Of a stretch of 64,000 nucleotides of DNA, positions 29,655 to 49,130 are shown piece by piece. Below the pieces are notes generated by a model, which was given only the letters and a program-made list of their open reading frames with translations, was not told the origin of the DNA and did not search any database. Origin of the DNA: Clostridiales bacterium (GTDB taxonomy: Bacteria > Bacillota > Clostridia > Saccharofermentanales > Saccharofermentanaceae). The position numbers were made by a program, and so were the translations under genes. The DNA is taken from NCBI GenBank assembly GCA_017552455.1, contig JAFZPX010000017.1, forward strand, positions 1-64,000. Direction: 5' to 3'. Every line of letters begins with the position of its first letter. The first letter of the stretch is position 1.

Positions 29655-29724
29655 GAAGTTAATAATAGATTAATGTGTCCTAGTGTCGGATTCTGTCTTC
29701 ACGGGGCACACTCTAGGAGGGGAC

Positions 29725-32700
29725 ATGAGGGTTACGAAGAAAACATCTTCAATCGCCACAGCAAGACGCGCACGCCGCGGCTTTACATTGGTCGAGCTCA
29801 TCGTTGTCCTCACGATCCTCGCGATACTTGCTGCGATCGGTGTGGCTAGTGCGGTTCGCTACATTGACCGCTCGAGATTTGAAGAGAACTCACAGAGTGC
29901 TGTAACTGTATATCAGGCGGCGCAGACAGCCATTTCTCAGAAGATCGAGAATGGAACCATAAGCAGTTGGGTAGAAGGTTTGAATGGTTTTTCTCCTGCC
30001 GAGATCTCATACCTCAACAATCAGGCGCAGGATAACCTTTCTGTTCATCATACAGTAGCACTCACATATAACCCCAATAATCCTAACAAAGCAGTCGAGG
30101 GGACAGAAGATAAGAAGCTTCATGATCTTCTTACCAGCTGCTTTTATGATCAGACGATATTCAGTGGAACAATATCCGTAGTCTTTGATGTCAGTGCTAC
30201 ATATGGCAATGGAACGATCTACTATTCTGCGAATGTTATTTCTGCCTTCTACAGCAAGCAGAATAATGCGACTACGGGTTGGCAGGCAGATTTCTGTAAC
30301 CATTCAGGCCACGAAGGATATATTGATGAAGAGCCTTGGAAGAGTCTTCCTTGTACAGACTACAATTGCAGAAGAGATACAACTCGCGTCGGTTATTTTA
30401 ACGGTCTCGAATCGTCCATTGTCGGATCGGTAGTTCTTCCTCAGGCAGATTCCGATCTGGTTGCTGATGTAACGCTTCGTAACAGCGAGACCCTTGATAT
30501 CAACTGGGTCGTATTCAGTTCTCATTCATCTACTGATGAGTTTGACCTTAACTTCTACGATAATATCGGTTCTGGAACAGATCCTCTCATCACCATAACC
30601 GTTGATGAGAAGACCATTAATGACGCGGCTCTTACACAGACATCTACAGTTTATGAGCGTGTGACGATGACGAGTGAAGGCGTTGCATACGATATGAATA
30701 TAACCAGAACCTCTCGGCAGGGAGTGGCTTCGTTCGAAGTTACCCAAAGCGATGGTACAACTGTTACATATGAGTTCCCCGTAACGAAGACGACAGTAAC
30801 GGGTGACGCTCGTGCTTCAGTTACTGAATATGCTAATCCCATGACCGGCTATACCGTATATACTCTGTCGTTAGACTGTATGATGACTCGTAATGATTAT
30901 CAGGTTAACGCCGACGCCATGTATGACTCTTCGAGATTATTCGCTAATCCCACCAATATCTATGCTGAGTTAGTAGCAGATGGAAAGGATCCGATCGTCG
31001 CTACCAGAGCTATAGACGATCCTGTTCATTTCACCGGGGTTGAGCGAGTTTACTTTAGAGACGGCGGCCATACAGCTTATTGTTATAACTTAAACGACGG
31101 TCAGAAGGCCGGATTGGACACTGATGATAGATGCGTAGTCAACACGTTGTTTGGTGACCTTCAGTATGGCGATGATCTTAATGGTATCCGCGGTAGTTTT
31201 GCAGGTGCTGTAAGCAACAATCAGACTGTAACGGCTATAATCACTTCGTACAGACATTTGTCGAACATTCGCAGGATAACTGATAATAACAACAAACATC
31301 ACTTCAATTACCTCATTGCCAGGGATCTTAACTGGTATATCCCCGGAACAGCCACGACGATGCCGGTAAGCGAAGTTAAGGTATTCGCGTCGTCAACAAA
31401 CAGCAACAGAGGACTGCTTGGATATACCGGTTATTATTATCATTCTCCGGTAGAGAACGGATCAATAAGGATAGTATCATTCCCTGCTATTCAGGAGCTT
31501 AAGGGTAATGCTGTTTTGTCTGCGGCTGTTCGTACAGATACCGGCACGGGACTGTATTCTATCAACAATGTCCAGATGCGACTTGCTTCGTTCTGGACCG
31601 GCACAGATCAGGGATATGGCCTTATCTGTAAGAACTTAGGTAAGATAACGAATATTGTTACGAATAGCTTGAATCTGGTAATGGTCAATGTTACTGACGG
31701 TTCTGCGAATGACTACGGCAGTATTTGTCCTAATTCTGTTCAGCTTACAGAGACTTCTGTTAACCGCCCGAAATCCGGAGATGGAAGAAACAAGGACTTT
31801 GACGATAAACCGATAGGTGGTCTTGTCGGTCTTAATCAGGGAACGGTCGGTATTGATAATGATGCTGTGATCATTATGAATAATCCTATAGTAATGGGTG
31901 GCCGTTATTGGTCGATCATGAAGTTCATGAAAGGCATCGGCGGTGTAATCGGAAAGAATGAAGGAAATAACGGCTTACTTAACGGAACAATAGAGGTTAA
32001 TGGATCTTTCGCTATTGTCGGTCATACATATGTCGGCGGAATAATCGGACACAGCAAGACTAATACTGTTAATGCGAGATTCATTGTTAATGGAGCTAAT
32101 CCTGCGGATGTTCCTGCAAGCAATATCGGAGTACTGCCAAGAGAGAGTAATTATACTTCCGGTTCGATGTCATGCTCCGTGGTATCATGGAATACTTCTG
32201 CCGGAGCCATCGGCTATCTCGAGAATGCTGCGCTCACATATAATATTAGCAACAAATTCGCATCTGTTTCTAATTCTGATGCTGATACGGGTTCGTTCTC
32301 GTTTATCAATCAGGATAATTTCGACTATATAATCGATGTTACTCTTCCGACAAATTCGCTCCTGATAAGCTTCGGAAACGGAAGTAGTTATGATGTTAAC
32401 GAGTCACGAAGACTGGGCAATGGCGGTGCAGTCGGTTATATGCGTGACTGTAATGTTAATAATGTCGCTGCGGGTGAGTATGTAAGTATCAGAGTACATA
32501 ATTATGGCAAGATCCTAATCGCCACTACTAATCTGGATACGGGTCACCCTAATGTAACGCTTATTTCAAGCGGTGGTGCGGTTGGACGAGATGAGAACAG
32601 TCGGGTTGATACTGTTTTTGTCAATGTTATTAATGAGCCGGGCTCGCAGATTGGAAATGTAAGTTCGCATAACATATTGTCAAGTTGCGGCGGTGCATAC

Positions 32701-35700
32701 GGTTATATTGAAGGTTCGGAACATGACGGCAGAACGTATGCGGTAAGCGTTATCAACCGAGGAACATACATCCGAGCTGAAGGCGGAGCCGAAGGTTATG
32801 GTGCCGGTGGTGCTGTCGGCGGCATAGGTTCTGATTTCGACGGCTGCTACTATATTAATGTTAATAACGCATTAGGAATCGGAACTGCCCCCAGAATAAC
32901 TGATATTGGAGATCATGGTGCCGATGTTTACGATGGTGCCGGCGGTGCTATTGGAAGTATGTACCGTGCGAACTCTTCAATTATGGCAAGTTCTGTTATT
33001 TATGCAGAGAATCACGGATCTGTCACGGGTGATTATCATGTCGGCGGAGCGATAGGTAATGCATCATCTAATTTGGGTAAGATTTATTCTAATAATGTAA
33101 ACGCTACCATTTCAGGAAATGACTTCATTGGTGGCGCTATCGGATATGAGTTAGCCTCTCAGTCCGGTACGGTTCAGTCGATCTTGGCTAATACAACAGT
33201 AAGCGGAGCGGACTTTATCGGCGGTGCTGCAGGATCATTGCAGGAATACAATGCCGGTTCAGTTACTACTGTTGTCAACGGTTCTTCATCCGTAATAGGT
33301 ACAGGCTCCTTTGTAGGTGGTGTATGCGGAGAGACTCTTAGAACTGTAGCGGATGCTACATATACATCAGTTACTCTTAAGAGAGGCAGTAATTCGACAT
33401 CCGTTCCCAGTCTTACTGTTACGGGTGGCGGTTCTTCGATAGCTGTTGGCGGTGCAGTTGGTATGCTTCGTGCACAGAACTGTGCAAACTACTGTAACGT
33501 TACAATGCCTTCGACAGAAGGAATAATCTTCAATATTGATGGTGGAGAGTGTGTTGGCGGCGCTGTCGGCGAGATTCGTTCATCTACGGCCGGAGCTTCC
33601 CATTCATCTGCTGAATCCCTCGCAGGTGATATTAAGGCTTATGATGAATACGTAAAGGTCGATGTAGTGCTTCGTTCTGAGTCACATATCATCGGTACCG
33701 GTGCTAATGTTGGCGGTGCAGTCGGTCTTGTTAATTCACAGGGTGCCGTATACAGAGAGTCGATTAGTGTAACTGCTGCTTCCGGAACTGCTTCCGGAAC
33801 GGGCATCTCAGGATCTGTGAATGTAGGAGGTGCCGTAGGATTATTTTCAAATTGCTATCCTTCGAACAGCATCACTGTTGATATCAGTGCAGTAAGTGCT
33901 CCGTTTACTATATCTTCGACAGCTTCAGATGCATCAGTTGATGCTAATCTTGGAGGCGCTATAGGAATTGTCAGTTGTGCTGTTGACGGGGATTCAGGAG
34001 TCGGATCCATAACTGTCAGACTTGGAGTTGCAAGCATTACGGCAACCGGATCTAATGTAGGCGGGGCAATTGGAAAGAACAATGTAAGTGTTACGTCCAG
34101 TTCTGCAATAAGTGTTACCTACGGCGGGGCTATTCGGGGATCAGACAGAGTCGGCGGAGCAATCGGGTATAATTTGTCTTCAGTCGGCAGCATATCATCT
34201 TCAGGTACCGGTAGTTCGAGTGGAGTTATCGGTAATGAATGTGTCGGTGGTGCCGTAGGTCTGACAGAGAATAGTATCGCCGGTATATCCGTTACGTTAA
34301 GCGGAGATAATGCAGTTGTTGGTAAGAGGTATGTTGGTGGCGCATTAGGAAGAGTAGGCACTTCCACTGATAATCCGACCATCTCGTCTGTATCTGTAGA
34401 AGTGAATACGGGCAAGCCGGTTTCTCAATCTCAGGCAATAGGTGTAAACGAAGATGCATTTATCGGAGGAGCAATCGGCCAGGTATTAAGAGGAACGGTT
34501 GCAAGTATATCCATAAGCGGATCGGGTGCAAACGTTAATCCGTATTCAGTGAATCCGAGTGCACCTAACAGGAGTGTACCAAACTCAATGCTGGTATCGG
34601 GTGCAGGAAGATCGATCGGCGGAATAATAGGACAGATAGGTGATGAGAACAGTAATACAGGAGCTGTTGTTAACGATATAACGGTTGCCGATAGCATTGG
34701 TATCTGTGTAGTGTCTACTTCAGGCTCAGAAAAGATAGGCGGTTGGATTGGCAGCTGCTATGGCCAGCTTACTGCTGTTTCTTTGCAGAGCAGCACATAC
34801 AGTGTAAAGACAGTTAAAGTGGTTTATTCTTCAGGTGAAGCCGTGGGCGGTTTCTGTGGAATAGTCAGACCAAGTGCAGATTCGCTTCAGGAGCGTGTTT
34901 CGATTAACGGAAGTGTCAGCATAGTTTATTCAGGCGCTTCTGTTACGGGCCTTGCCAGGGTCGGCGGTGCTATTGGTGAGGTTTCCGGCGGAGCCAAGCT
35001 TAGTGGCAGTATTACCGTTGATCTTGATCAGGATATATACGGAAACTTTACGAGCATAGGTGATTATCAAGGGAATACTTCAGATATTTCTCTCTGCTTT
35101 TGTATTGAAGCAGGTGGAGCTGTAGGCTATCTTGACTGTGAAGGTGCGATCTATCGAGTCATCGATGGTAAGGTGGAAGTTAACATTAAGAAGGGAAGCC
35201 GAGTATTTGCCGGAGGAACAAGCCTCGCGGGCAGTACGATAAGTTCTTTTGAGATTGCCGGAGTTGGCGGTGCATATGGACGAGTTGGTTCGATTGATAA
35301 CACAGTAGGTCCATATGTAGGTGCAGAGAATAGTACTGTTCCAAATGATAACAGTCGAAATAATAACAGTAACCAATATTTAATCGTAACTTGTGACAAT
35401 GCCAATTCATATATTTATTCAGCCAGATCGAATGTTGGTGGTTCCATAGGTCACTTGATAAGGGGTTATTTATCATACAGTCGTTCAACGGCCATTGTTG
35501 TCGGCGGCGGAAGCGGACCTAACGGTCTTGGTACAGGACAGGGATGTACGGGAGGATTGATCGGAAGAGCTGATAACGGTCATATCGAGAACTGTATTGT
35601 CGGAGGCCATACATCATATGGTCAGTATATGCGCGGAGAAGAGAATATTTCCGGATTAAATTATGTTGGCGGTTTTATTGGATATTCAGACACCGGAATC

Positions 35701-37908
35701 AATGCGATTGATCAGTGTTATACTACCGCTTCAGTGCGAGGAGACTCATATGTAGGCGGATTTGCCGGATATATCCATACTCCTAATAAGAAAGGTGCAT
35801 TGCATCAGACATATTCTACAGGCTTGGTGACGATAATAGGCACAGGGAATAATACAGGTGCTTATGCCGGATTTATAGATTTTAATAACAATTGGAATTC
35901 TATTAGATGGGATCGCAACAATGGTATGTTTAATTATGCGCTTACCGGAGTTAACAGCAATATGATGCCACGCGTAGGCAATATTGATGAGAGTGAGTTA
36001 GATTCACATGATGACGGACGTTACATTGCGTGGGCTATACCGAGTGCAACCAGATATGACACGGGGTCAAAGTCGTGGACGGACGAATATGGCAACACAC
36101 ACATATACTACTATATCAGAAATAGAAATACTATTTATACGGTTCATCCGCTCGATCCTACTTTAACTCAGAATGGATGGTTCCCATTCAGAACATTTAT
36201 GGGTAATGATCATTATGGAGATTGGCCGGTAATTGACACAGATCACCCCAACCTTTCTACGGCATTAGTCGATCTGATGGTAGATGGTAATATGTGGAAT
36301 GCTTATGATGAACCGATATCTGTAGAATATTCAGGCAGTAATGTTACTATTCCTAATCTTCAGGTGCTTGTTAACGGAGTTCCGTTGGATTCGGATGATT
36401 ACATCCTGAATTACAGTAATAATCTTCATGTAGGAACAGCTGTTCTTAACATTGTCGGTCGTAACAACTATACAGGTGTTTATGGACCGAGACAGATTAC
36501 GATCATTCCTCGTGACATTCATAACCATGAGGATGAGTTTACTGTTACATTAGATGTTCCGGATGGCGGAGTACCTTATACAGGCAGTCCGATTACACCT
36601 GAGGTAACGGTTGAATATGCGGGTAACCAATTAAGACGTGGTGAGGATTATGTATTGAGATATAGCAATAACACTAATGTTTCTGATGGTAACAGCAGTA
36701 ATCCTCCAACGGTTACGATAGTCGGACATGGTGATTATACAGGTGAAATAGTAAGGACATTCACAATTGCGGCTCCTGACTTATCCGGTGCAACGATTAC
36801 TGTCAATGGTGTGTATACGTATGATGGAACATCCCAAGAGCCGACCGTCTCTGATATGACAGTAGTTTACAATGGAATCACTCTCGAACCCAATACTGAT
36901 TATGAAGTAACTGGATATGAGGATAATACTAATGCGGGAACAGCGAGAGTATTCATTTCCGGTCTTAATAATTATTTCGGCAGCACTGCAACAGGAGAGT
37001 TTGCTATAAGCCCTGCAGATATATCTTCCGATGAGTTTACGGCAAGTCTTGTAAATGATGTTGATGCAGGTCTGTATTATGATCAGGGTGTACCGGAAAG
37101 AGGAAGTGCATATGAACCTGCTGTAACAGTAACCAGAGGGACGACCGATCTTGATGCAACAAGTGACTATACTGTTGTTTATGATGCTAACACTGCTCAC
37201 GGAACCGCTACTGTTACTATTACCGGAACCGGTAACTATACAGGAGTAAGAGTACTGACATTCAGAATACTTGAACTCTTTACTGTTACATTCAACAGTA
37301 ATGAAGGTTCAGCAGTTGATGATCAGTCTGTTGTCGATGGCGGATATGCAGCAGAGCCTACTCCTGCTCCTACAAGAAACGGGTATACATTATTGTTCTG
37401 GTATGAGCATCTTGATGAGTCGGGTAATCCGGTTGCCTTCGATTTTGCAAATACGGCAATTACAGGCAATACTACGCTCTATGCAGAGTGGGGAGGAACC
37501 ATTACATTTGTAACTAATGGCGGTACATCTATCGACCCTCAGGCGTATAGACTGGGAGAGATTGTAACGGTAGAGCCCACAAGAGATGAGTATGTGTTTG
37601 ACGGATGGTTTACTGATGAGGGTCTGACGACACCGTTTACTTCTGTTGATGGTGATACTACTCTTTATGCTCGTTGGGTTCATACAGTCACGTTAGTTTA
37701 TGGAGAAGACACCGGGATAGAAGATGTAGTGCAGCGTGTAGCTCATGAGGGGTATGCAACAGTTCCTTCGTCCATTCCGACATGGGAGGGTCACACATTC
37801 TCCGGTTGGTATGATTCAGCTGCAGGTGGAACTGTATTCGATTTCACGAATCAGCGGATAATGTCCAACTGTGTCATATATGCTCATTGGGATGAACAAA
37901 CCCCATAA
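29725..37908 (+). CDS. Giant prepilin-type adhesin with GLUG-like, Ig-like and InlB-type repeats
   Basis: A 2,727-aa protein from ATG 29725 (GGAGGGGAC directly upstream). Residues 1-45 are a class III prepilin signal: basic leader ending RRARRG, cleavage after Gly19, then FTLVELIVVLTILAILAAIG with Glu24 at +5. Residues about 45-690 form a large unassigned head. Roughly 690-2050 contain about 33 copies of a Gly-Gly-(Ala/Val/Ile)-x-Gly motif (GGAVGYM, GGAIGYEL, GGAVGLVN) spaced about 40 residues, resembling the GLUG motif and suggesting a beta-solenoid. Four Ig/MBG-like repeats of about 80 residues (2195-2515, ending ..NYTG...F.I) and three InlB B-repeats (2515-2727, ending TLYAEW, TLYARW, VIYAHW) follow. 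There is no LPxTG. It probably extends from a type IV pilus as an adhesin. Its own promoter and a terminator flank it. Confidence 0.9.
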   Translation: MRVTKKTSSIATARRARRGFTLVELIVVLTILAILAAIGVASAVRYIDRSRFEENSQSAVTVYQAAQTAISQKIENGTISSWVEGLNGFSPAEISYLNNQAQDNLSVHHTVALTYNPNNPNKAVEGTEDKKLHDLLTSCFYDQTIFSGTISVVFDVSATYGNGTIYYSANVISAFYSKQNNATTGWQADFCNHSGHEGYIDEEPWKSLPCTDYNCRRDTTRVGYFNGLESSIVGSVVLPQADSDLVADVTLRNSETLDINWVVFSSHSSTDEFDLNFYDNIGSGTDPLITITVDEKTINDAALTQTSTVYERVTMTSEGVAYDMNITRTSRQGVASFEVTQSDGTTVTYEFPVTKTTVTGDARASVTEYANPMTGYTVYTLSLDCMMTRNDYQVNADAMYDSSRLFANPTNIYAELVADGKDPIVATRAIDDPVHFTGVERVYFRDGGHTAYCYNLNDGQKAGLDTDDRCVVNTLFGDLQYGDDLNGIRGSFAGAVSNNQTVTAIITSYRHLSNIRRITDNNNKHHFNYLIARDLNWYIPGTATTMPVSEVKVFASSTNSNRGLLGYTGYYYHSPVENGSIRIVSFPAIQELKGNAVLSAAVRTDTGTGLYSINNVQMRLASFWTGTDQGYGLICKNLGKITNIVTNSLNLVMVNVTDGSANDYGSICPNSVQLTETSVNRPKSGDGRNKDFDDKPIGGLVGLNQGTVGIDNDAVIIMNNPIVMGGRYWSIMKFMKGIGGVIGKNEGNNGLLNGTIEVNGSFAIVGHTYVGGIIGHSKTNTVNARFIVNGANPADVPASNIGVLPRESNYTSGSMSCSVVSWNTSAGAIGYLENAALTYNISNKFASVSNSDADTGSFSFINQDNFDYIIDVTLPTNSLLISFGNGSSYDVNESRRLGNGGAVGYMRDCNVNNVAAGEYVSIRVHNYGKILIATTNLDTGHPNVTLISSGGAVGRDENSRVDTVFVNVINEPGSQIGNVSSHNILSSCGGAYGYIEGSEHDGRTYAVSVINRGTYIRAEGGAEGYGAGGAVGGIGSDFDGCYYINVNNALGIGTAPRITDIGDHGADVYDGAGGAIGSMYRANSSIMASSVIYAENHGSVTGDYHVGGAIGNASSNLGKIYSNNVNATISGNDFIGGAIGYELASQSGTVQSILANTTVSGADFIGGAAGSLQEYNAGSVTTVVNGSSSVIGTGSFVGGVCGETLRTVADATYTSVTLKRGSNSTSVPSLTVTGGGSSIAVGGAVGMLRAQNCANYCNVTMPSTEGIIFNIDGGECVGGAVGEIRSSTAGASHSSAESLAGDIKAYDEYVKVDVVLRSESHIIGTGANVGGAVGLVNSQGAVYRESISVTAASGTASGTGISGSVNVGGAVGLFSNCYPSNSITVDISAVSAPFTISSTASDASVDANLGGAIGIVSCAVDGDSGVGSITVRLGVASITATGSNVGGAIGKNNVSVTSSSAISVTYGGAIRGSDRVGGAIGYNLSSVGSISSSGTGSSSGVIGNECVGGAVGLTENSIAGISVTLSGDNAVVGKRYVGGALGRVGTSTDNPTISSVSVEVNTGKPVSQSQAIGVNEDAFIGGAIGQVLRGTVASISISGSGANVNPYSVNPSAPNRSVPNSMLVSGAGRSIGGIIGQIGDENSNTGAVVNDITVADSIGICVVSTSGSEKIGGWIGSCYGQLTAVSLQSSTYSVKTVKVVYSSGEAVGGFCGIVRPSADSLQERVSINGSVSIVYSGASVTGLARVGGAIGEVSGGAKLSGSITVDLDQDIYGNFTSIGDYQGNTSDISLCFCIEAGGAVGYLDCEGAIYRVIDGKVEVNIKKGSRVFAGGTSLAGSTISSFEIAGVGGAYGRVGSIDNTVGPYVGAENSTVPNDNSRNNNSNQYLIVTCDNANSYIYSARSNVGGSIGHLIRGYLSYSRSTAIVVGGGSGPNGLGTGQGCTGGLIGRADNGHIENCIVGGHTSYGQYMRGEENISGLNYVGGFIGYSDTGINAIDQCYTTASVRGDSYVGGFAGYIHTPNKKGALHQTYSTGLVTIIGTGNNTGAYAGFIDFNNNWNSIRWDRNNGMFNYALTGVNSNMMPRVGNIDESELDSHDDGRYIAWAIPSATRYDTGSKSWTDEYGNTHIYYYIRNRNTIYTVHPLDPTLTQNGWFPFRTFMGNDHYGDWPVIDTDHPNLSTALVDLMVDGNMWNAYDEPISVEYSGSNVTIPNLQVLVNGVPLDSDDYILNYSNNLHVGTAVLNIVGRNNYTGVYGPRQITIIPRDIHNHEDEFTVTLDVPDGGVPYTGSPITPEVTVEYAGNQLRRGEDYVLRYSNNTNVSDGNSSNPPTVTIVGHGDYTGEIVRTFTIAAPDLSGATITVNGVYTYDGTSQEPTVSDMTVVYNGITLEPNTDYEVTGYEDNTNAGTARVFISGLNNYFGSTATGEFAISPADISSDEFTASLVNDVDAGLYYDQGVPERGSAYEPAVTVTRGTTDLDATSDYTVVYDANTAHGTATVTITGTGNYTGVRVLTFRILELFTVTFNSNEGSAVDDQSVVDGGYAAEPTPAPTRNGYTLLFWYEHLDESGNPVAFDFANTAITGNTTLYAEWGGTITFVTNGGTSIDPQAYRLGEIVTVEPTRDEYVFDGWFTDEGLTTPFTSVDGDTTLYARWVHTVTLVYGEDTGIEDVVQRVAHEGYATVPSSIPTWEGHTFSGWYDSAAGGTVFDFTNQRIMSNCVIYAHWDEQTP

Positions 37909-38085: not shown

Positions 38086-38583
38086 GTGTCGGACGACAGA
38101 TCGTCTCATGAAGTGCATGTTGAAGGCACACAGTTTTACAGGAGAAGCGCGATAGCGGATATTTTCCGCATCGTTCTCATTACTGTCGTTGTGCTTGTTG
38201 CAGTTTCTGTCTTAGCTGCTTGGGCCATAGTTGATGCCGGAGCCAGACAGGCCCATAAAGAGGCCAGAGATATTAGAAAAGCTCTCCGAATTGTCGGAAC
38301 AGAGTACTATGGTGAACTTACGTCGATATATGATCCCTATAGTTCCAATGGTATGGTCGACGGTGCGGCAGAAAAGATTGCCGATATTTCTACAAGGGGC
38401 GGAGAAGTAATACTTTATTCATGGGATGATAGCAGTAATGCGCCTTTACAGTTCGAATATCGCAATGGCCTGTACAGAGTGATCTATACTGACACGGGTG
38501 TTTCAGAAGGATACTCAGCAGGAGTGGAAGGCGAGTTCAATGTTTATTACTCATTTGAGATATTGCATTTTGACGCAGAGTAA
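38086..38583 (+). CDS. Unknown single-pass membrane protein of the pilus operon
   Basis: A 165-aa protein starting at GTG 38086, after CAGGGGGAGAGAACT. A short cytoplasmic part (about 25 residues) is followed by one helix (IFRIVLITVVVLVAVSVLAAW) and an external domain with a helical KEARDIRKALRIVGTEYYG segment and a beta-rich end (GEVILYSWDD, FEYRNGLYRVIY). It lacks the prepilin cleavage site, so it is not a pilin. As first gene of the assembly operon it may be an assembly or regulatory component specific to this pilus type. No family is recognised. Confidence 0.65.
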   Translation: MSDDRSSHEVHVEGTQFYRRSAIADIFRIVLITVVVLVAVSVLAAWAIVDAGARQAHKEARDIRKALRIVGTEYYGELTSIYDPYSSNGMVDGAAEKIADISTRGGEVILYSWDDSSNAPLQFEYRNGLYRVIYTDTGVSEGYSAGVEGEFNVYYSFEILHFDAE

Positions 38584-38611: not shown

Positions 38612-39808
38612 ATGCCGGAATATAAATATCAGGCACAAGACAGTAAGGGCAAGATAATTAAAGGTAAAGCCGACGCTGCTGACGAGACAGATCTTCAGAG
38701 ACGTTTTCATGATTCAGGGCTGCTGCTTCTTGATGCTAAGCCTGTCACTAAGCAAATTGCACTTAAGTCTCTTAAGAAGCCTAAGCTGGCAGATTTCTGC
38801 CGTCAGCTGGGAACTCTTACCAAGGCCGGTGTCACATTGGTTAAGGCGCTTGAGATCGTCGCCAATGACGAGTCCATTACACCCTATGAGCGACAGTTGT
38901 ATATTAGGCTGCGTGACCGCGTAGTACAGGGCGTAGCGCTCTCTAATGTTATGGAAGAACTGGAACCTGCGTTTCCTCCGCTTCTTATCTACATGATACG
39001 CGCGGCAGAAACATCCGGTACACTCGATACGACATGCCTGAGACTCGCAGATCAGTATACAAGCGAAGCTAAGATGGAGCAGACCGCCAAGAACTCTCTT
39101 ACGTATCCTAAGATACTAAGTGTGTTGATCGTAGCTGTTGTTGCCATTCTCTTCGGATATGTATTACCCCAGTTCGAGGATATGTTCTCGACAATGGGAA
39201 CACTGCCTCTTGCGACACGAATTCTCATGGCGATATCTAATTTCGTCAAGACCAAGTGGTATGTATTAATAGTTGCAGTTGTTCTTATAGTTATCTTCGG
39301 CAAAATAGTAAAGAAGATTCCGATCGTCGCTTATACAATAGATATGATCAAATGTAAGGGCAAATGGGGCAAGCTGTTTAAGGTAATCTATTCCGCGCGA
39401 TTCGCCCGTACAATGAGTTCTCTGTATTCTTCCGGTATTCCGATCTACAGTTGTATTCAGATATCTAAGGGTACTATCGGTAACAAATACATTGAGAAGC
39501 AGTTCGAGGAGGTCGAGAGACAGGTCCTCGGAGGTTCCCCGATGTCTGCATCTCTGCAGAACGTTGACGGATTCGTCAGTAAACTACCGGCTACCATAAA
39601 GGTCGGTGAGGAGACAGGTATGTTAGGTCCTATGCTAGAGTCTGTCGCCAATGATCTTGATTTCTATTCCGAACAGGCGCTTGTACGCCTTACTTCGTAT
39701 ATTGAGCCCGTTATGATAGTCGTTATGGCAACCATAGTAGGTTTCATAATGATCGCTATCATACAGCCGATCTATCAGTCTTATTCGACGATCGGTGCCG
39801 GTTCGTAA
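38612..39808 (+). CDS. pilC: Type IV pilus inner-membrane platform protein PilC (T2SF family)
   Basis: A 398-aa platform protein with two T2SF domains. The first has FCRQLGTLTKAGVTLVKALE and ends in a helix pair at about 170-190. The second starts ARFARTMSSLYSSGIPIYSC and ends in a C-terminal helix (VVMATIVGFIMIAIIQPIY). The N-terminal YKAQDSKG-type motif reads EYKYQAQDSKGK. PilC/GspF links the cytoplasmic ATPase to pilin extraction. GGAAGGACTTGACGG precedes the ATG. Length matches the family. Confidence 0.94.
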   Translation: MPEYKYQAQDSKGKIIKGKADAADETDLQRRFHDSGLLLLDAKPVTKQIALKSLKKPKLADFCRQLGTLTKAGVTLVKALEIVANDESITPYERQLYIRLRDRVVQGVALSNVMEELEPAFPPLLIYMIRAAETSGTLDTTCLRLADQYTSEAKMEQTAKNSLTYPKILSVLIVAVVAILFGYVLPQFEDMFSTMGTLPLATRILMAISNFVKTKWYVLIVAVVLIVIFGKIVKKIPIVAYTIDMIKCKGKWGKLFKVIYSARFARTMSSLYSSGIPIYSCIQISKGTIGNKYIEKQFEEVERQVLGGSPMSASLQNVDGFVSKLPATIKVGEETGMLGPMLESVANDLDFYSEQALVRLTSYIEPVMIVVMATIVGFIMIAIIQPIYQSYSTIGAGS

Positions 39809-39827: not shown

Positions 39828-41318
39828 ATGGCTGTAGTAGTATTTCTGTCAAATACCAATATTCAGGTAGCGACCGGATCGCCGACGCCGGGCGGTGTTA
39901 AGGCTACCAAATTGTTCTCTGCGCCGCTTCCGGAGGGAGCAGTTCTTAACGGTGTAGTTATGGACAAGGATATGCTCACACAGACGATAAAGACAGTGTG
40001 GCAGACGAACAAGCTTCCGAAGGCTGAGGTAACGCTCATCATTAACAGTCCTCAGCTTCGTGCTAACAGAACTGATGCTCCTATCCTGTCAGATAAGAAG
40101 ACAACAGCGTTTATAAAGAGGGAGACGGCGGATTCCGAATATGGAAGATTCACGAAGCCTGTTACCGGCTGGTATCTGATAGGCAAGGACAGTAAGGCCA
40201 AGACACAGCAGATCATATATGAGACGGCTGAGTCTGATTTCGTAACGGGATATGTCGATATCTTCGACAAGGCGGGACTTAAGCTTAAGTCCATCCATAA
40301 CGGCGTGCATATCGCGACTGAATTCCTGACCAAGGCTTCTGCGGGCAAGACGGTCATCTACATGATCCTCGACGGTAATTCACTGGTCACGATCTTCTTT
40401 GCCGAGGGTAAGTTCTACTACGACTCGACATCGCGAGTATTCGCTCAGCCCGGAACGCCAGAGTTCGCTCGAGAGATCTATTCGTCCATATCGTCCATCA
40501 GACAGTTCATGTCAGCTCAGCATATTGAAGCAACGGTCAAGGATGTCCTGTTTGCGGGTTTGACCCAGCCGCAGGTTACATCACTGTCGAATGACATACT
40601 TAACATAGACAGTCAGATCGACATATCCGTCATTACTGCTCCTGCAGGAACATCTATTTCTGAAGGAATGGCTGCGTTCCCGTTCTATGTTTATCCGATT
40701 GCAGGTCTTCGTAAGATTGACGAGAGACTGTCGGTTCTTAAGGCTTCCAAGCAGAGTGTTGCTAAGGAAGGAGATAAGGGCAGTCTTGTTAAGCTCATAA
40801 TTCCTTTTGTTGGTTTTTTTATTCTGGCGGGAATAATCCTAGCTGCAGTTACGGCGATCAGAGCCTCAAAGAAGGCTGAACTTAAAGAGCTTAACGACTA
40901 TATTCAGGACCCTGATGTTATTGTTCAGGTAGCAGAGTACGATGCGATGTATGAGAACATGGGAGAGATGGGAACGATACAAGGCGGGGCAGATCTGCTT
41001 CATCAGGATATCGAATCATATCCGATACCGGACTCTTCTATCAATCAGAGAATTATCGAAGCTGCTATTCCTCACGACGTTGATATAGAGATCAATTCGT
41101 ATGATGCGTCAACCGGAGTATTCAGTGTTACGGCATCTTCGCCGGTAGTAGATGACATAAACATGTTTATAGCTGATCTCATGTCCATGGATATATTCGA
41201 GAATGTCGATTACACAGGCTATGCCATCACAGCCGATGGTGAGACGTGGAAGATCAATGTAGTATGTACCCTCGCCGGAAGAGAGCTTCCTTCCGATGCA
41301 GAAGGGGAGGTGAACTGA
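39828..41318 (+). CDS. PilM-PilN fusion-like pilus assembly protein
   Basis: A 496-aa protein. Residues 1-310 have the PilM pattern: an actin-like fold starting AVVVFLSNTNIQVATG, with phosphate-loop-like turns and a central TVIYMILDGNSLVTIFF strand pair. One membrane helix lies at about 325-345 (IIPFVGFFILAGIILAAV), and an external ferredoxin-like domain follows, as in PilN. In most species PilM and PilN are separate and join through the PilN cytoplasmic tail; here both appear in one chain. It is followed at one base by PilO and sits between PilC and PilB. The assignment rests on layout and gene order more than on motifs. Confidence 0.75.
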   Translation: MAVVVFLSNTNIQVATGSPTPGGVKATKLFSAPLPEGAVLNGVVMDKDMLTQTIKTVWQTNKLPKAEVTLIINSPQLRANRTDAPILSDKKTTAFIKRETADSEYGRFTKPVTGWYLIGKDSKAKTQQIIYETAESDFVTGYVDIFDKAGLKLKSIHNGVHIATEFLTKASAGKTVIYMILDGNSLVTIFFAEGKFYYDSTSRVFAQPGTPEFAREIYSSISSIRQFMSAQHIEATVKDVLFAGLTQPQVTSLSNDILNIDSQIDISVITAPAGTSISEGMAAFPFYVYPIAGLRKIDERLSVLKASKQSVAKEGDKGSLVKLIIPFVGFFILAGIILAAVTAIRASKKAELKELNDYIQDPDVIVQVAEYDAMYENMGEMGTIQGGADLLHQDIESYPIPDSSINQRIIEAAIPHDVDIEINSYDASTGVFSVTASSPVVDDINMFIADLMSMDIFENVDYTGYAITADGETWKINVVCTLAGRELPSDAEGEVN

Positions 41319-41319
41319 T

Positions 41320-42183
41320 ATGGCGAAGTTTGAAACTAACCTCAATAAAAAAGACAAGATGACGATAGCGATTGTGCTGTTTGTCGGTGCGTTGTTTGCC
41401 TTTTCATGGTATTTGATAAAGCCTGCTATAACAGATATCAGATCTTTATCGGATGATATTGAGCAGGCGGAGATACTTAAGACTCAGTACAGGAACAAGA
41501 TAATTAACTTAACTAGTGCAGAATCTGCATTTGATCGAGTCGTAACAGACTTGTCAGATTCTACAACAGGTTTTTATGAGATCATGCCAAGTTCGACTAT
41601 CGACCGAATGGCGACAAATTATGTATTAAGCTTCGGGTTGTTTCCTGAGTCATTGGAGATTACTATGCCGACTGGTCCGATTGAGGAAACACCGTATGTC
41701 TATTCGGAAGCATATGAAGTACAGATTAATTCGGTTGTAGATTCATTGCCCACACCTACTCCTATTACGACGACAGGACTGGGGTTGACGGCATCAGGGT
41801 CTGTCAGTTCAAGTTCCGGTACTACACCTTCTGTTGAGGTTGAAAGCTTGTTTGTTCCATATAATCAAGCTAGGGCAAATGCAGTTTCAACTTCTTATTC
41901 GGGTGTACAGGGTGCAGATCTTACACTTATCATGACTGGTTCACCGGAGGCCTGTCAGGCTCTTATCGATGATCTGTGTACTAAACCTGCTATTAGGATA
42001 ACCGGATTTGAGTGGATGACTATTGATCCGGTTGAGCATTATGATGAGGAGACGGGTGAAGTCGAATATATTGATCCTGATTATACAAGACTTCGTGTGA
42101 GTCTTCGACTATATATGGCAGATGTGGCTGACTACGAGGCGATGGTCTCCGATGCGGTAGAGGCTGCAGGAGCGGAGGGATAA
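41320..42183 (+). CDS. pilO: PilO-like pilus assembly protein
   Basis: A 287-aa bitopic protein. A short cytoplasmic start is followed by a helix at about 15-35 (MTIAIVLFVGALFAFSWYL), a coiled coil (SDDIEQAEILKTQYRNKI) and an external domain interrupted by a Thr/Ser/Pro-rich linker at about 145-175. It ends in a ferredoxin-like fold with ADLTLIMTGSPEACQALI, the usual end of PilO. It would form the alignment subcomplex with the PilN part of the preceding protein. GGGGAGGTGAACTGAT precedes the ATG. Confidence 0.8.
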   Translation: MAKFETNLNKKDKMTIAIVLFVGALFAFSWYLIKPAITDIRSLSDDIEQAEILKTQYRNKIINLTSAESAFDRVVTDLSDSTTGFYEIMPSSTIDRMATNYVLSFGLFPESLEITMPTGPIEETPYVYSEAYEVQINSVVDSLPTPTPITTTGLGLTASGSVSSSSGTTPSVEVESLFVPYNQARANAVSTSYSGVQGADLTLIMTGSPEACQALIDDLCTKPAIRITGFEWMTIDPVEHYDEETGEVEYIDPDYTRLRVSLRLYMADVADYEAMVSDAVEAAGAEG

Positions 42184-42185
42184 TC

Positions 42186-43871
42186 ATGGCAGACAATTCC
42201 AAGATTCGTATAGGCGACTTGATGGTCTCGGCGGGTTATATTACCGAAGACCAGCTTAAAGAAGCTCTCGGAATACAGAAAGAATCAGGCGGTAAGAGAA
42301 TCGGTCAGGTCCTTCTTGACCTGGGATATGTTACCGAGGTTCAGATGTTGTCTGCGCTCGCCGACAGACTTGATATCCAGCTTATTGACATCACCGCATA
42401 TCCGATCGATGTCGAGACTGTTCAGCTTATTCCCAAGCAGCTCGCAGAGCAGTACGTTATGCTCCCCATCGGTCAGGAGAACGGTGAAGTAATCCTTGCA
42501 GTTAACGATCCTCTTAACCTCTATGCCATCGAGGATATAAGACAGACGATCGGTATGCCGGTAAGGACTGTCCTTGCACAGGAAGTACCTCTCAAGGAAG
42601 CTATCAACTACCAGTATGCAGGGATCAAGGCCCGTATGGCTGCCGAGCATGCGAACGCCAATACTGCGGGTATCAATGTTGATGAACTCGTTATCGATAC
42701 GTCTGCAGGTGCCGATGATGCTCCTATCATCAACCTCGTTAACTCACTCCTTGATAAGGCTTTCCAGGATAATGCGTCCGATATCCATATCGAGCCATTC
42801 GAGACTAACGTTATGGTAAGAATGCGTATCGACGGTACGCTCATTGATTACATCACACTGCAGAAGAATGTTCAGGATTCACTTGTCGCCAGAATCAAGA
42901 TCATGGGTGACATGGATATCGCCGAGAGGCGTATCCCTCAGGACGGCCACTTCCGTGTAAGGATCCAGGGGCAGATTGTCAACGTCCGTGTTAACGTCAT
43001 CCCTACGGTATTTGGCGAGAAGGTCGTTATGAGACTTATCATGTCTGCAGTTGCTATCGACAACAACCAGACGTTCGGTATGACTCAGGAGTGTTACGAC
43101 AAGTTCACCAAGATGCTTATGTCGCCTAACGGACTTATCTATATTACGGGTCCTACGGGTTCAGGTAAGTCCACTACGCTTTATAACGCTCTCGGCTCTC
43201 TCTCTCAGAAGCCGATCAATATCAGTACCATCGAGGATCCTGTCGAGAAGAATCTGCCTAGATTAAATCAGGTTCAGGTCCATCCTACTGCAGGTCTTAC
43301 ATTCGAAGTCGGACTTAGAGCTCTCATGCGTCAGGACCCTGACGTAATCATGGTAGGTGAGACGCGTGATGCCGAGACTGCATCGATCTCCATCAGAGCT
43401 GCCGTTACAGGTCACCTGGTACTGTCAACACTTCATACTAATGATGCCGCATCGACGATCGTAAGACTTATCGATATCGGTGCCGAGCCGTACATGCTCT
43501 CGTCCGCTCTTGTAGGTGTAGTAGCCCAGAGACTCATGCGTAAGGTATGTCCTTACTGTGCCAAGCCGGAGCCGCTGTCCCAGAGACAGATAGAATTCCT
43601 GGGACACGATATTCCCGGAGCCAAGAAGGGTGCGGGCTGCGGTCAGTGCCATAACTCGGGTTATCTCGGTCGTACCGCCATTCACGAGGTCCTTGTCGTC
43701 GATAAGGCAATGCGTAAGATGATAGCCGAGAATGCTGAGGCTGAAGAGATGAAGCAGTATGCCATCAAGAACCAGGGCATGAAGACTTTGAGAATGGCTG
43801 CCGAGCTTCTTGTTCAGCAGGGCATCACATCGATGGAAGAGTTAGAGCGTGTCGCCTACAATGACGACTGA
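42186..43871 (+). CDS. pilB: Pilus extension ATPase PilB/GspE
   Basis: A 561-aa hexameric motor. The N-terminal MshEN/GspE-N domain (about 5-150) begins IRIGDLMVSAGYITEDQL. The ATPase part has ASDIHIEPFETNVMVRMRID, Walker A GPTGSGKSTTLYNA (about 321-334), an Asp/His box region, and Walker B DPDVIMVGETRDAETA (about 382-397). A tetracysteine metal site follows in CPYCAKP and CGQCHN. This is the extension type, not the retraction ATPase PilT. GGAGGGATAATC precedes the ATG. Confidence 0.96.
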   Translation: MADNSKIRIGDLMVSAGYITEDQLKEALGIQKESGGKRIGQVLLDLGYVTEVQMLSALADRLDIQLIDITAYPIDVETVQLIPKQLAEQYVMLPIGQENGEVILAVNDPLNLYAIEDIRQTIGMPVRTVLAQEVPLKEAINYQYAGIKARMAAEHANANTAGINVDELVIDTSAGADDAPIINLVNSLLDKAFQDNASDIHIEPFETNVMVRMRIDGTLIDYITLQKNVQDSLVARIKIMGDMDIAERRIPQDGHFRVRIQGQIVNVRVNVIPTVFGEKVVMRLIMSAVAIDNNQTFGMTQECYDKFTKMLMSPNGLIYITGPTGSGKSTTLYNALGSLSQKPINISTIEDPVEKNLPRLNQVQVHPTAGLTFEVGLRALMRQDPDVIMVGETRDAETASISIRAAVTGHLVLSTLHTNDAASTIVRLIDIGAEPYMLSSALVGVVAQRLMRKVCPYCAKPEPLSQRQIEFLGHDIPGAKKGAGCGQCHNSGYLGRTAIHEVLVVDKAMRKMIAENAEAEEMKQYAIKNQGMKTLRMAAELLVQQGITSMEELERVAYNDD

Positions 43872-44454
43872 TAAGACTTCTTCCTGTAAGTTAATACAAG
43901 ATCTGAGAAGCGTGCCGTCGCCGGTGTTTTACATCTTTGCGGCGGTCGCTGTTTTTTGTTCTTTCTTCGTGTTAGGCTTCACCTTGAGGAGTATTTTCAC
44001 GGCGCTCTTTATACTCGCTCTTGTAGCATGTGCTTCAGCTGATATCAACAAGGGCATCGTGCCTGACCTGATGCTTATATTCATAGCGGCGCTTGCGATT
44101 GTGAACTTCTTTGTGACAGAAGGCTTCAGTACGCAGGGTCTTCTGGATCATCTTATAGGTGCCGTTTGTATGTCGGTACCGATGCTGATAATAGCGCTTC
44201 TGGTTAAGGGGGCATTCGGTGGCGGCGACATTAAGCTCATGGCTGCAGCAGGGCTTTATCTGGCCTGGAGGTATACGGTCGCAGGGGCGATAGTGGGTAT
44301 GTTTATCTCAGGTTTTTATGGTATGTATCTTCTGCTTATTAAGAAAGCTGGCGCCCGTGCCAAGATGAAACTCGCGCCGTTTCTCGCTTACGGACTTGCT
44401 ACAGCGGCCCTGTTCGGAGACAGGATAATCGCACTGTTAAGCTTATATCAGTGA
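43861..44454 (+). CDS. Prepilin peptidase, A24 family, lacking the methylase domain
   Basis: A 197-aa integral membrane aspartic peptidase that cuts class III signals. Catalytic Asp61 lies in CASADINKGIVPD and Asp123 in FGGGDIKLM, the two-Asp signature of the family. About six helices are visible. It lacks the N-terminal cysteine-rich methyltransferase domain of PilD, so mature pilins may not be N-methylated by this protein. ATG 43861 overlaps the pilB stop by 11 bases; a GTG at 43849 is an alternative. Its last 12 bases overlap the convergent XRE gene. Confidence 0.92.
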   Translation: MTTDKTSSCKLIQDLRSVPSPVFYIFAAVAVFCSFFVLGFTLRSIFTALFILALVACASADINKGIVPDLMLIFIAALAIVNFFVTEGFSTQGLLDHLIGAVCMSVPMLIIALLVKGAFGGGDIKLMAAAGLYLAWRYTVAGAIVGMFISGFYGMYLLLIKKAGARAKMKLAPFLAYGLATAALFGDRIIALLSLYQ

Positions 44455-44781
44455 GTCGCAGTATTTCTTAAGTAATTCCAGTTTTTTCTCGTCGAAGTCT
44501 TTACACGATTCGATTATCGAGAACAGAGTAGGCGAGACATTCTTATCCGTATAAATAAAGTCAGGAGCATTCTCTTTGGTTTTACCGGTGAGGTAGTCAA
44601 CGGAAGTGTTTAATTCTCTCGCGATTGCCGTTATCACCTGAATTGACGGGGTGCGTGAGCCGTCCTCATATCTTAAATATGCCGGCTGAGATACACCGAC
44701 ACGCTTAGAGGTCTCTCTCTTTGATAATCCGGCTTTCTCTCTGCATTTCTTAAGTCTGTTAACATCCAGCTGATGATCCAT
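44443..44781 (-). CDS. XRE-family helix-turn-helix regulator
   Basis: A 112-aa protein from ATG 44781 (ACGGAGGCCTGAT upstream). A Cro/C1-type HTH lies at about 8-62: LKKCREKAGLSKRETSKRVG, then VSQPAYLRYEDGSRTPSIQV. The acidic C-terminal helix is probably for dimerisation. It is divergent from the ORF6N gene, with two near-palindromic sites between them, and is likely their shared regulator. It converges on the prepilin peptidase gene with a small overlap. Confidence 0.9.
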   Translation of the reverse strand: MDHQLDVNRLKKCREKAGLSKRETSKRVGVSQPAYLRYEDGSRTPSIQVITAIARELNTSVDYLTGKTKENAPDFIYTDKNVSPTLFSIIESCKDFDEKKLELLKKYCDSLI

Positions 44782-44805
44782 ATCAGGCCTCCGTTGCTTG
44801 TTGAT

Positions 44806-44850
44806 TATACCAATGGAATAGGGTACAATCAAACATATACCAAAGGAATA
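44806..44850. promoter_or_regulatory. Two repeated near-palindromic operators between XRE and ORF6N genes
   Basis: TATACCAATGGAATA (44806-44820) and TATACCAAAGGAATA (44836-44850) are direct copies exactly 30 bases apart. The first is nearly symmetric (TATnCCAnTGGnATA). Placement between divergent genes and on the same helical face fits binding by the XRE protein. Confidence 0.6.
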
Positions 44851-46234: not shown

Positions 46235-46666
46235 ATGAAAAAGATTACAAGTAAGTCAAAGAAGGGCTTCACATTAGTTGAGCTTATCGTAGTATTGGTT
46301 ATCCTCGCTATCCTCGCAGCTATGCTCGTACCTGCTCTCACAGGCTACATCAAGAGAGCTAGAGAAGAGAAGGAATATCAGACAGCATCTACAGTTTATA
46401 GTGCAGCCCAGGCGGAAGTAACAGAGTACTATGGTAGATCTACAGGCACATTTGCAGCAGGAACAATTACTCAGTCTACACCTACAGGTTATGGCGACAA
46501 GGTTCTTGACCTCGCAGGAGTAGACACCAGTGCAGTTACAGCATTCTCATTCAGCTATGGTGCTAATGGTATTATTACCGGTGGTTCTGTAACAATCAAT
46601 GGTAGCGTTTATACATTGACTATTACAAGTGGTGTTCCTTCTTGGACAGCTGCAGCATCGACATAA
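46235..46666 (+). CDS. Major type IV prepilin
   Basis: A 143-aa prepilin. Leader MKKITSKSKKG is cleaved after Gly11, then FTLVELIVVLVILAILAAML with Glu at +5 and a helix to about residue 45. The small head (about 95 residues) is rich in Thr, Ser, Ala and Gly with no Cys, and ends in repeated short beta strands (SVTINGSVYTLTITSG). Size, a strong ribosome-binding site (AAGGAGGACAGAAAG), its own promoter and an immediate terminator suggest it is the abundant structural subunit. Confidence 0.92.
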   Translation: MKKITSKSKKGFTLVELIVVLVILAILAAMLVPALTGYIKRAREEKEYQTASTVYSAAQAEVTEYYGRSTGTFAAGTITQSTPTGYGDKVLDLAGVDTSAVTAFSFSYGANGIITGGSVTINGSVYTLTITSGVPSWTAAAST

Positions 46667-46870: not shown

Positions 46871-47578
46871 ATGAGAAAGACTATCAAATCATCAATCGAC
46901 AGCAAGCGGGCATTTACGCTCGTTGAGCTTATAGTTGTTCTTGTTGTTCTTGCAATCCTTGCAGCTATGGTAGTCCCTGCACTTACGGGTTATTTTAGAA
47001 AAGCCAAAAAGGCTCAGTATATACAGAAGGCTGATGAAGCCCGAGTTGCTGCGCAGGCTGTTATGCAGGAACTGTATGGTTTGGATGATGGCAATGCAGC
47101 GCATAACTCGACTACCGATGGTAATAATGTCTTCTGGAATAGCGGAACTGATAAAAAGTGGGGAGATAAGGTTCTTCAGCTGTTAGGCTGTGGCAGAGGC
47201 GCTGCTAACGGTGAGCCATATATCTTTATTATCGGAGTAGGAACACACAATTCTGCCGGTGGAATGAGTTTGACTCAGCGATATACTGTTTACTATGTGG
47301 CATATGTTGAGAATGAGAATTCCCCTGCGCTATTCTATGTCAATGGTGAATGGATGTATGAGTATCCTCGTTATGATGGTTCACCGGCGATCGATACCAG
47401 ATCTTTTGGCACCACCAGTTTCAGAAATACGATAGTACTTAACGGAGCAAAGATACCGCTTCAGTTCTATATTATTAGTAATAGAACAGGGCTTAATGCT
47501 TCGAGTGCTACATTCTGGACGGGTTCAGATTCACGTTCGTTATATAGCCATAGCGATGGCTATTATGGCAAGTCATAA
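46871..47578 (+). CDS. Minor prepilin, 235 aa
   Basis: The signal reads MRKTIKSSIDSKRA then FTLVELIVVLVVLAILAAMV, with Ala instead of Gly before the cleavage point and Glu at +5. A helix with ALTGYFRKAKKAQ is nearly the same as in the major pilin, pointing to a common origin. The head is about 190 residues and contains several aromatic loops (WMYEYPRYDG). ATG 46871 follows GGGAG at 9 bases; earlier in-frame starts are possible. It is likely a minor pilin. It begins the group of four minor pilin-like genes. Confidence 0.85.
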   Translation: MRKTIKSSIDSKRAFTLVELIVVLVVLAILAAMVVPALTGYFRKAKKAQYIQKADEARVAAQAVMQELYGLDDGNAAHNSTTDGNNVFWNSGTDKKWGDKVLQLLGCGRGAANGEPYIFIIGVGTHNSAGGMSLTQRYTVYYVAYVENENSPALFYVNGEWMYEYPRYDGSPAIDTRSFGTTSFRNTIVLNGAKIPLQFYIISNRTGLNASSATFWTGSDSRSLYSHSDGYYGKS

Positions 47579-47590
47579 AGTGTGGTTCCA

Positions 47591-48019
47591 ATGAGGTGCT
47601 TGCGAAAGACATCAACATCTCTTAGAGCCGCCGCTGTAATTATGCGCGGTAATGATGGCGCGAGTCTTGTTCTGGTTTCTATTATCGCGATCATTATTAT
47701 TACAGGTGTAGTTATTCTTAAGATGACTACGAATTCCCTCTGGGCTTCTGCCGATAAACAGTATTATCAGGATCAGGCTTATGTTGAAGCAACCAGTCTG
47801 GGAGAGTCAATAGACAAGCTAATTAGTGAAGGCAAGATAGATCTTTCAACCGAGCAGTTCAACAGCATAAGAAGATCGGACCTTATTATCAGCGTAGCTG
47901 AGATCGATACTACGAATCATGTCTACCGGCTGTCAATCACATCACATGTCGGCAATTCTGAATATACTTATACAGCGACATATAAGGGTTCAGGAACATC
48001 GTATACGAGGCAGTACTGA
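47591..48019 (+). CDS. PilX/GspK-like minor pilin component
   Basis: A 142-aa protein with a basic leader, then GASLVLVSIIAIIIITGVVI and a head of about 95 residues. The hydrophobic segment starts after Gly as in pilins, but the residue at +5 is Leu rather than Glu. Loss of Glu5 is typical of GspK-type tip pseudopilins. It lies between minor pilin genes, a position held by PilX-type proteins in other clusters. ATG 47591 is preferred to the GTG at 47582; both have weak ribosome-binding sites. Confidence 0.7.
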   Translation: MRCLRKTSTSLRAAAVIMRGNDGASLVLVSIIAIIIITGVVILKMTTNSLWASADKQYYQDQAYVEATSLGESIDKLISEGKIDLSTEQFNSIRRSDLIISVAEIDTTNHVYRLSITSHVGNSEYTYTATYKGSGTSYTRQY

Positions 48020-48020
48020 A

Positions 48021-48350
48021 ATGAAGATTATCAGAAAGACAATGCATATCTTTAGTGATAATTCAGGCGAGACCATGGCAGAGGTTCTCGTAGCGTTTAC
48101 GTTGCTGTCCATAATGTTGGTTGTATTCTCAGAAGGAATCGCATGGGCTACGAGATCGGAGGCTAATGCAAGTGTAAGCCGTAACGGAGCGGACGCTGCC
48201 ATGCAGTATCTTCAGAAGGATATAGCATCCGGGACTACGGCTAACAGAGAATTGGTTGCTACAACGAGTGTTGGCAATGACGGTAAGATTAACACCTACA
48301 CATATACGTATGGCAATTACACATATACAGTTTATGAGGCAGCGGGTTGA
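48021..48350 (+). CDS. PilV-like minor prepilin
   Basis: A 109-aa prepilin from ATG 48021 (GAGG ten bases upstream), one base after the previous stop. The leader ends DNSG; the mature chain starts ETMAEVLVAFTLLSIMLVVF, with Glu at +5 and the EVLVAF motif usual for PilV/GspI proteins. The head is only about 65 residues. The longer frame to 47919 overlaps the preceding gene and is not needed. Confidence 0.8.
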   Translation: MKIIRKTMHIFSDNSGETMAEVLVAFTLLSIMLVVFSEGIAWATRSEANASVSRNGADAAMQYLQKDIASGTTANRELVATTSVGNDGKINTYTYTYGNYTYTVYEAAG

Positions 48351-48353
48351 TCT

Positions 48354-49130
48354 ATGAGAAGGATAAAGAGCAGAAGAAGATCAAAAAGAGCTTTTACACT
48401 CGTGGAATTGATCGTCACGATGACTTTGACGTCGATCTTTGCCGGGTCTTGTGTGCTGCTCATTCTTCCTATCACCAAGATCTATACTCACATGAATGAC
48501 TTAAGCCGTGCTCAGCTTCTGGCGGATACCATTGTTGACGAACTTCGTGCCGAGTGTGCCAACACATATATAGAAGGCCGCGGCGATGTATGGATAGCAT
48601 CGGGTATGCCTGGGAATGCTAAACCTGCGATAGATTCTCGTGACAATGGAGGAACGGTTCTTGTCATAAGGAGAAACAGGGGTTACTGTGAGACTATCAG
48701 TTCCAGTTATGAAATTCCGGGCGGAGCTGACGGGGCGTGGAATATTATTTCTGAAGGGGATGAAGAATTCATTAATGGTAATTTTACGAGCCGCGCCATA
48801 TACAGGATGTACGATTCTTCAGGCAACAGTCTCAACTCCGATGTAGATTCAGGATATGTTCACTTCGGATACTATACCCGTGATACCGCTGATGTTAGCG
48901 GCGTTGATTATGTATTGCCGGGCGACTATTACGATTTTACTAATCCTTTTACAGGTGCTACATATAACAGCTCTAAAGAAGGGTTTACTGTTGAACTGTA
49001 TTTCCACTGGGATGGGACCGAGCCTTCCGGAGCGGCATCGTATGTTCTTTGTGATGTAAGGATCTTACGTTCGGATGAAGTCGTCTATACCCGTACGGCA
49101 GTTCTCTGCTTCGCATCTCCTGTTAATTGA
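48354..49130 (+). CDS. PilW/GspJ-like minor prepilin
   Basis: A 258-aa prepilin. The basic leader MRRIKSRRRSKRA is cut before FTLVELIVTMTLTSIFAGSC, again with Ala at -1 and Glu at +5. The helix continues into IYTHMNDLSRAQLLADTIVD, as in PilW/GspJ. The head of about 200 residues includes SSGNSLNSDVDSG and a C-terminal strand with Cys (YVLCDVRILRSDE). It is the last gene of the pilus cluster. Confidence 0.82.
   Translation: MRRIKSRRRSKRAFTLVELIVTMTLTSIFAGSCVLLILPITKIYTHMNDLSRAQLLADTIVDELRAECANTYIEGRGDVWIASGMPGNAKPAIDSRDNGGTVLVIRRNRGYCETISSSYEIPGGADGAWNIISEGDEEFINGNFTSRAIYRMYDSSGNSLNSDVDSGYVHFGYYTRDTADVSGVDYVLPGDYYDFTNPFTGATYNSSKEGFTVELYFHWDGTEPSGAASYVLCDVRILRSDEVVYTRTAVLCFASPVN

Follow-up and report, generated by a model that had tools for sequence, protein, structure and literature searches.

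The window, by which we mean the whole 64,000-nucleotide stretch of DNA analysed, encodes at 29725..37908 (+) a giant modular prepilin of 2,727 aa, delimited by its ORF and Pfam matches. In the sequence, an AGGAGG ribosome-binding site (29715..29720, +) lies 4 nt 5′ of the ATG at 29725. The leader peptide (residues 1–19; 29725..29781, +; PF07963 and TIGR02532) ends in RRG with cleavage expected before F20, and the signal RRG/FTLVE places Glu at mature position +5. The N_methyl profile PF07963 matches residues 14–38 with 32.9 bits (cut-off 21.2) and TIGR02532 matches the N-terminus with 30.4 bits (cut-off 16.3), in agreement with a sequence-only reading that had assigned a class III signal to a protein of this length. 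Two objections foreseen in that reading, a start downstream of the signal and homologues devoid of one, do not arise: the ATG is upstream of the signal and no second in-frame Met occurs in residues 1–120, and no giant whose N-terminus is complete lacks the signal. The single Met and the good ribosome-binding site rule out a misplaced start. F20 and E24 are invariant in homologue alignments, and F+1, T+2 and E+5 show no exception in a 33-row alignment of the giant homologues. The class III signal of the protein is confirmed. Its size had been put at about twenty times that of a normal pilin; the giant size stands, but the figure is about 17–19 times.

The pilin module (residues 20–228; 29782..30408, +) is predicted to consist of an α1 helix (residues 22–75) followed by a β-sheet head, as judged by AlphaFold and a PDB profile match. 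AlphaFold2 model 1 (residues 1–1135, 33 sequences, mean pLDDT 82.5) displays, at pLDDT about 70–90, a 54-residue α1 helix and head strands between residues 105 and 177, in a head that runs to about residue 225. With a profile of the N-terminal 240 residues, the best PDB match was S. sanguinis PilE1 (E 6e-9), aligned over residues 1 to 121, that is, most of the mature pilin; other solved pilins also matched. No pilin appeared in the VIA-align list for model 1, which was filled by the Ig-like domain. The module is followed by a disordered linker (residues 230–245; 30412..30459, +; pLDDT under 50).

Beyond the linker lies a long display rod. It begins with an Ig/FnIII-like β-sandwich domain (residues 246–477; 30460..31155, +), for which VIA-align gave Z about 5, a weak match to a common fold, and continues into a predicted right-handed parallel β-helix of GLUG type (residues 507–2060; 31243..35904, +), assigned from motifs and fold matches. 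Exactly 33 GGxxG motifs occur between residues 698 and 2045 at a mean spacing of about 42 residues, which bears out the earlier count of about 33 GGAVG repeats; 2,000 shuffles gave a mean of 3.0 and a maximum of 10, ruling out a chance origin, and the narrower GGA[VI]G was found 17 times, where shuffled sequences averaged 0.11. A β-helix had been expected at residues 690–2050 upon structure prediction. In the models covering residues 1–1135 and 1500–2695 (model 2, pLDDT 76.9), the solenoid starts at about residue 507 and matches right-handed β-helices by VIA-align, including phage tailspike (Z 12.1) and pectin lyase A (Z 9.7) for model 1 and B. ovatus 3n6z (a putative IgA1 protease by annotation) for model 2 (Z 15.1 over 281 residues); residues 1136–1499, between the two models, carry the same motifs as the rest of the solenoid. 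Pfam Glug (PF07581) gave one match of 24.1 bits (cut-off 20.5), the other repeats being divergent, and no Glug match was returned by hmmscan of the whole protein. The GLUG assignment of the repeats is thus backed by the fold match but weakly by Pfam. Together, the models support a GLUG-type β-helix of roughly 1,550 residues, with an estimated length of about 30–35 nm, assuming ~21 residues and a rise of 0.48 nm per coil.

The solenoid is followed by four Ig/MBG-like repeats (residues 2173–2517; 36241..37275, +) and three InlB B-repeats (residues 2519–2725; 37279..37899, +). The former are plain as sequence repeats and form a β-sandwich array in the AlphaFold model, but the Pfam search found no match for them and their fold matches, to Ig-like stalk proteins, are weak (Z about 5). 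The InlB B-repeats, also proposed before, are recovered by both Flg_new PF09479 (110 bits over 3 stretches at the C-terminus) and the fold match to InlB B-repeat 2y5p (Z 7.6, rmsd 2.4; VIA-align, model 2). Foldseek with whole model 1 returned no match under E 0.001, and with whole model 2 mostly generic Ig and cadherin arrays.

We searched the giants for other means of attachment and for catalytic motifs. Neither LPxTG with a C-terminal TM tail nor a second TM segment was found in 34 giants, consistent with the proposed display without LPxTG anchoring and excluding sortase anchoring. The HExxH zinc motif was likewise absent from all 34, and on this ground an M26 metallopeptidase was rejected; a Pfam scan of the giant detected neither a catalytic domain nor a β-propeller domain.

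The sequence-only reading placed a prepilin peptidase and a T4P machine directly downstream, and profile matches to PilC, PilM, PilB and PilD, followed by five prepilin-like genes up to 49130, agree with it. All of these genes lie on the + strand. The first encodes orf165 (38086..38583), a signal-less pilin-like membrane protein recognised from its conserved family alignment; it adjoins pilC in nearly all operons seen, including one in a distant family (L142). Next come the PilC platform protein (38612..39808; PF00482, 163.7 bits), a PilM–PilN-like fusion (39828..41318; profile match to M. xanthus PilM 3jc8, E 4.5e-6, the PilN part being assigned by position and topology only), a PilO-like protein (41320..42183; assigned by position and topology only, with no Pfam match), the PilB extension ATPase (42186..43871; PF00437 422 bits, MshEN 59 bits) and the PilD prepilin peptidase (43849..44454; PF01478, 43 bits). 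The pilin genes comprise major-type pilA1 (46235..46666; PF07963, 40.1 bits), a second pilin, pilA2 (46874..47578; TIGR02532 27.8 bits, PF07963 33.9 bits), a GspK-like pilX-like minor pilin whose sequence (GASLVLVSI) lacks Glu+5 (47582..48019), a pilV-like minor pilin (48018..48350; PF07963 19.9 bits, below cut-off, with conserved position) and a pilW-like minor pilin of 258 aa (48354..49130; TIGR02532, 20.6 bits). Between pilD and the pilin genes lie an HTH (Cro/C1-type) regulator (44443–44832, −) and an ORF6N-domain protein (PF10543; 44856–45851, +), a pair that looks like an insertion; in relative G037 (L063) the pilin cluster, too, is followed by an ORF6N gene. Far from the operon, an 80-aa frame gives, at 16713–16790 (+), a weak match to the prepilin motif that stays under the cut-off (20.2 bits).

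The window's own pilus operon contains no pilT. A second T4P system, with a PilB of ~43% identity and a PilT-like ATPase, is encoded outside the window on another contig of the same genome (G000, contig C52) and is widespread in the genus: nearly all of the 35 genomes that have the window's PilB also have a second PilB (about 42%) with an adjoining PilT-like ATPase.

Glu+5 is missing from pilX in nearly all relatives and present in pilV, pilW and the giant, the pattern known from T2SS GspK versus GspI/GspJ. Having Glu+5, the giant is, by the usual salt-bridge rule, probably not the terminal pilus cap; sub-tip or shaft positions are possible.

Large prepilins beside pilC/pilB, for which a search had been advised, recur among relatives. 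By its named relatives, the genome belongs near Saccharofermentans, among Clostridia of rumen and gut. Besides 24 congeneric homologues of 1.5–3.75 kaa, a few of them truncated, we collected 11 from Lachnospiraceae and 3 from other Clostridia; the giant or a short homologue adjoins T4P genes on every contig that reaches far enough. This PilB (79–100% identity) is present in 35/85 genomes of the genus; 33 of these have the first-gene prepilin, and in the other two short contigs end before its place. Four additional genomes have the prepilin on contigs that end before PilB. The Lachnospiraceae giants (1,937–2,422 aa) occur in the gene order X-V-W-giant-orf165-C-M-O-B-A, and several stop soon after the solenoid, indicating that the InlB and MBG parts are optional. 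In more distant clostridial families, giants of 3,284, 2,035 and 1,893 aa stand beside minor pilins. As read from gene order, the pilus operon is rearranged in several ways among relatives. In about ten genomes (L040, L043, L045, L048, L052–L056, L058 and their named twins) the giant still adjoins orf165-pilC-pilM-pilO-pilB but is oriented divergently from it.

One lineage, clade B (about eleven genomes), has a first prepilin of only 474–556 aa without GGxxG repeats. Its pilW, seen in eight genomes (L066–L073), is enlarged and, if complete, encodes 945–1,390 aa; DUF285/PARCEL leucine-rich repeats (TIGR02167) are fused after a full-length PilW. By this predicted architecture, clade B PilW is a further type of giant modular pilin. 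In genomes with a giant first prepilin, PilW measures 243–348 aa. Wherever both proteins were seen there was exactly one giant per genome, never two and never none. G037 adjoins the short-prepilin clade but carries a giant first prepilin. On the PilC tree a single carrier switch is enough, and repeated switches were discarded for this reason; taking Lachnospiraceae as outgroup points to a giant first prepilin as the ancestral condition.

Pairwise comparisons locate a boundary between the pilin and display parts. G065 and G060 share 99% identity in PilB and PilC, 94–98% in X/V/W and 97% in the pilin module of the giant, versus 47% in the Ig-like domain and 23% in the later solenoid. The fall in identity sets in with the linker, around residues 229–260, at a place equivalent to the linker of the window's giant. 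This contrast, with its break in the linker, suggests that the pilin part is a carrier for exchangeable display modules. G015 and G080 differ otherwise: their machinery is 95–100% identical, but X/V/W share 35–44% and the giant pilin module 46%, so in this pair the giant and X/V/W were replaced together. Over 21 genomes, the giant pilin module tracked X/V/W once core genes were accounted for (partial Mantel r 0.33, P 0.0005), and in the same test pilA1 did not follow X/V/W. Split by gene arrangement, the co-variation came out strong for genomes in which the giant and X/V/W are neighbours (r 0.78); genomes in which they lie apart (n = 9) gave no significant effect (r 0.21, P 0.16). Linkage is therefore a sufficient cause, and we dropped the co-variation as proof of contact.

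Signal, pilin homology, β-helix, lack of another anchor, operon linkage, conservation and module exchange form the computed basis on which we read the protein as a giant modular minor pilin (probability about 0.62), one that would be processed by PilD and polymerised, most likely in the tip complex, with the rod reaching out to bind. PilD would remove the 19-residue leader, and PilB/PilC would polymerise the α1 helix and head (residues 20–228) with the other pilins, the pilin module most likely joining the minor pilins pilX/V/W in a complex at the tip. A rod composed of the Ig-like domain, the β-helix, the four Ig/MBG-like repeats and the three InlB repeats would be carried on the flexible linker. 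Extending past the cell wall, the rod could attach to some surface, for instance plant fibre, a mucosa or other cells; in this view the pilin part would serve as carrier and the rod as exchangeable display module. The giant is probably a pilus-borne attachment rod, although we infer its processing, its incorporation, its tip versus shaft position and its adhesion. Counting against this reading are the gene linkage that may explain the co-variation with X/V/W, the single origin of the carrier switch, the Glu+5 that makes a terminal cap improbable and the empty Foldseek result for whole model 1.

Alternatively, a PilD-processed giant might stay in the membrane as a surface-tethered stalk, its pilin helix acting solely as an anchor and never entering a filament. 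We consider this unlikely. A size far beyond known pilins and the want of a second anchor in the 34 giants would both suit a stalk, and X/V/W co-variation could be linkage; yet Glu+5, which is tied to assembly rather than to anchoring, is invariant in homologues, the pilin head is conserved to the extent of a PilE1 profile match, a T4P machine and minor pilins always adjoin the giant, and the giant module of clade B sits on another pilin, PilW. It is quite improbable that several copies line the shaft to form a bristled pilus instead of a tip adhesin. The Lachnospiraceae order X-V-W-giant, the inheritance of the giant with X/V/W and not with pilA1, and a minor pilin, PilW, as the alternative carrier in clade B all point away from the shaft, even though the giant has Glu+5 like shaft pilins and the flexible linker would permit lateral projection. 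An enzymatic rod on the pilus, be it an M26-type peptidase or a β-helix polysaccharide lyase/hydrolase, is very unlikely: fold matches do include the 'IgA1 protease' GLUG region, pectin lyase A and blood-group galactosidases, and S74 and M26 peptidase-like pilins are named in PMC8179133, but the 34 giants lack HExxH, the Pfam scan gave no catalytic domain, and the β-helix is a common structural fold.

Returning to the minor-pilin reading, the giant falls, by features testable in sequence or model, within the published 'modular pilin' class, of which it is a new and extreme variant. The sequence-only reading had noted neither this membership nor the giant module on another prepilin in clade B, a sister clade. 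Such proteins combine a pilin module with an extra functional module that is not specific to T4P, here the GLUG-type β-helix (IPR011493 is the GLUG entry) together with InlB repeats. The class survey reports more than 1,200 modular pilins, falling into 264 architectures, the most extreme by number of domains having 860 aa, and a pilin-IPR011493 architecture is taken as an M26 peptidase (Raynaud 2021, PMC8179133). The combination of pilin and GLUG may thus already be catalogued, perhaps including the giant's own family. That architecture likewise has a prepilin signal followed by GLUG-type sequence; unlike the M26 peptidase of the survey text, the giant has no zinc motif and the region is predicted to form a β-helix. 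The missing HExxH in the giants speaks against the M26 function given there for pilin-IPR011493. A literature search on GLUG with pilins, Saccharofermentans pili and giant modular pilins yielded nothing beyond the known modular-pilin papers.

In S. sanguinis PilB (vWA) and PilC (lectin), a class III signal and a small pilin module likewise precede a bulky module in a monoderm T4P (PMC8179133, PMC9934059). PilB has 454 aa when processed and the giant is about 6 times longer; in place of vWA or lectin, it bears a β-helix rod with surface repeats. Unlike those two, its display module is exchanged between alleles, and in one clade a giant module is borne by another pilin. In Thermus thermophilus, ComZ is also a minor pilin with a β-solenoid, proposed at the pilus tip (PMC6561018). 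Its DNA-binding solenoid of ~380 residues is inside the pilin sheet, whereas the giant's rod of ~1,550 residues follows the pilin module in a clostridial monoderm T4P.

PilY1/PilC is a tip adhesin of diderm T4P. The likeness is in role only, a large variable adhesin expected by, and encoded beside, that complex; PilY1 is a non-pilin with a C-terminal β-propeller domain, whereas the giant is itself a prepilin. Tentatively, and with more doubt than conviction, we suggest that clostridial T4P tips may offer one interchangeable giant display slot per operon, in which a first-gene prepilin or PilW carries rods of 1–3.5 kaa, exchanged through recombination at the linker, as a monoderm counterpart of the PilY1 role.

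Pilins of 2–3.75 kaa are well above the sizes met in the literature. If they are really polymerised, the T4P machine can lift a subunit that outweighs a dozen normal pilins, and one helix anchors a rod of tens of nanometres. Conservation of the family in rumen and gut Clostridia makes it a candidate means of holding fibre, host surfaces or each other. Cultured relatives exist, among them Ruminococcaceae bacterium KHP2, YRB3002 and AB4001 and Lachnospiraceae AB2028 and XPB1003, and naturally occurring allele pairs, like the carrier switch, provide a ready-made comparison of the pilin part with the display part. In another clostridial family, one genome (G421) encodes at least 6 prepilin-motif proteins of 507–631 aa on several contigs, perhaps another expanded modular pilin family.
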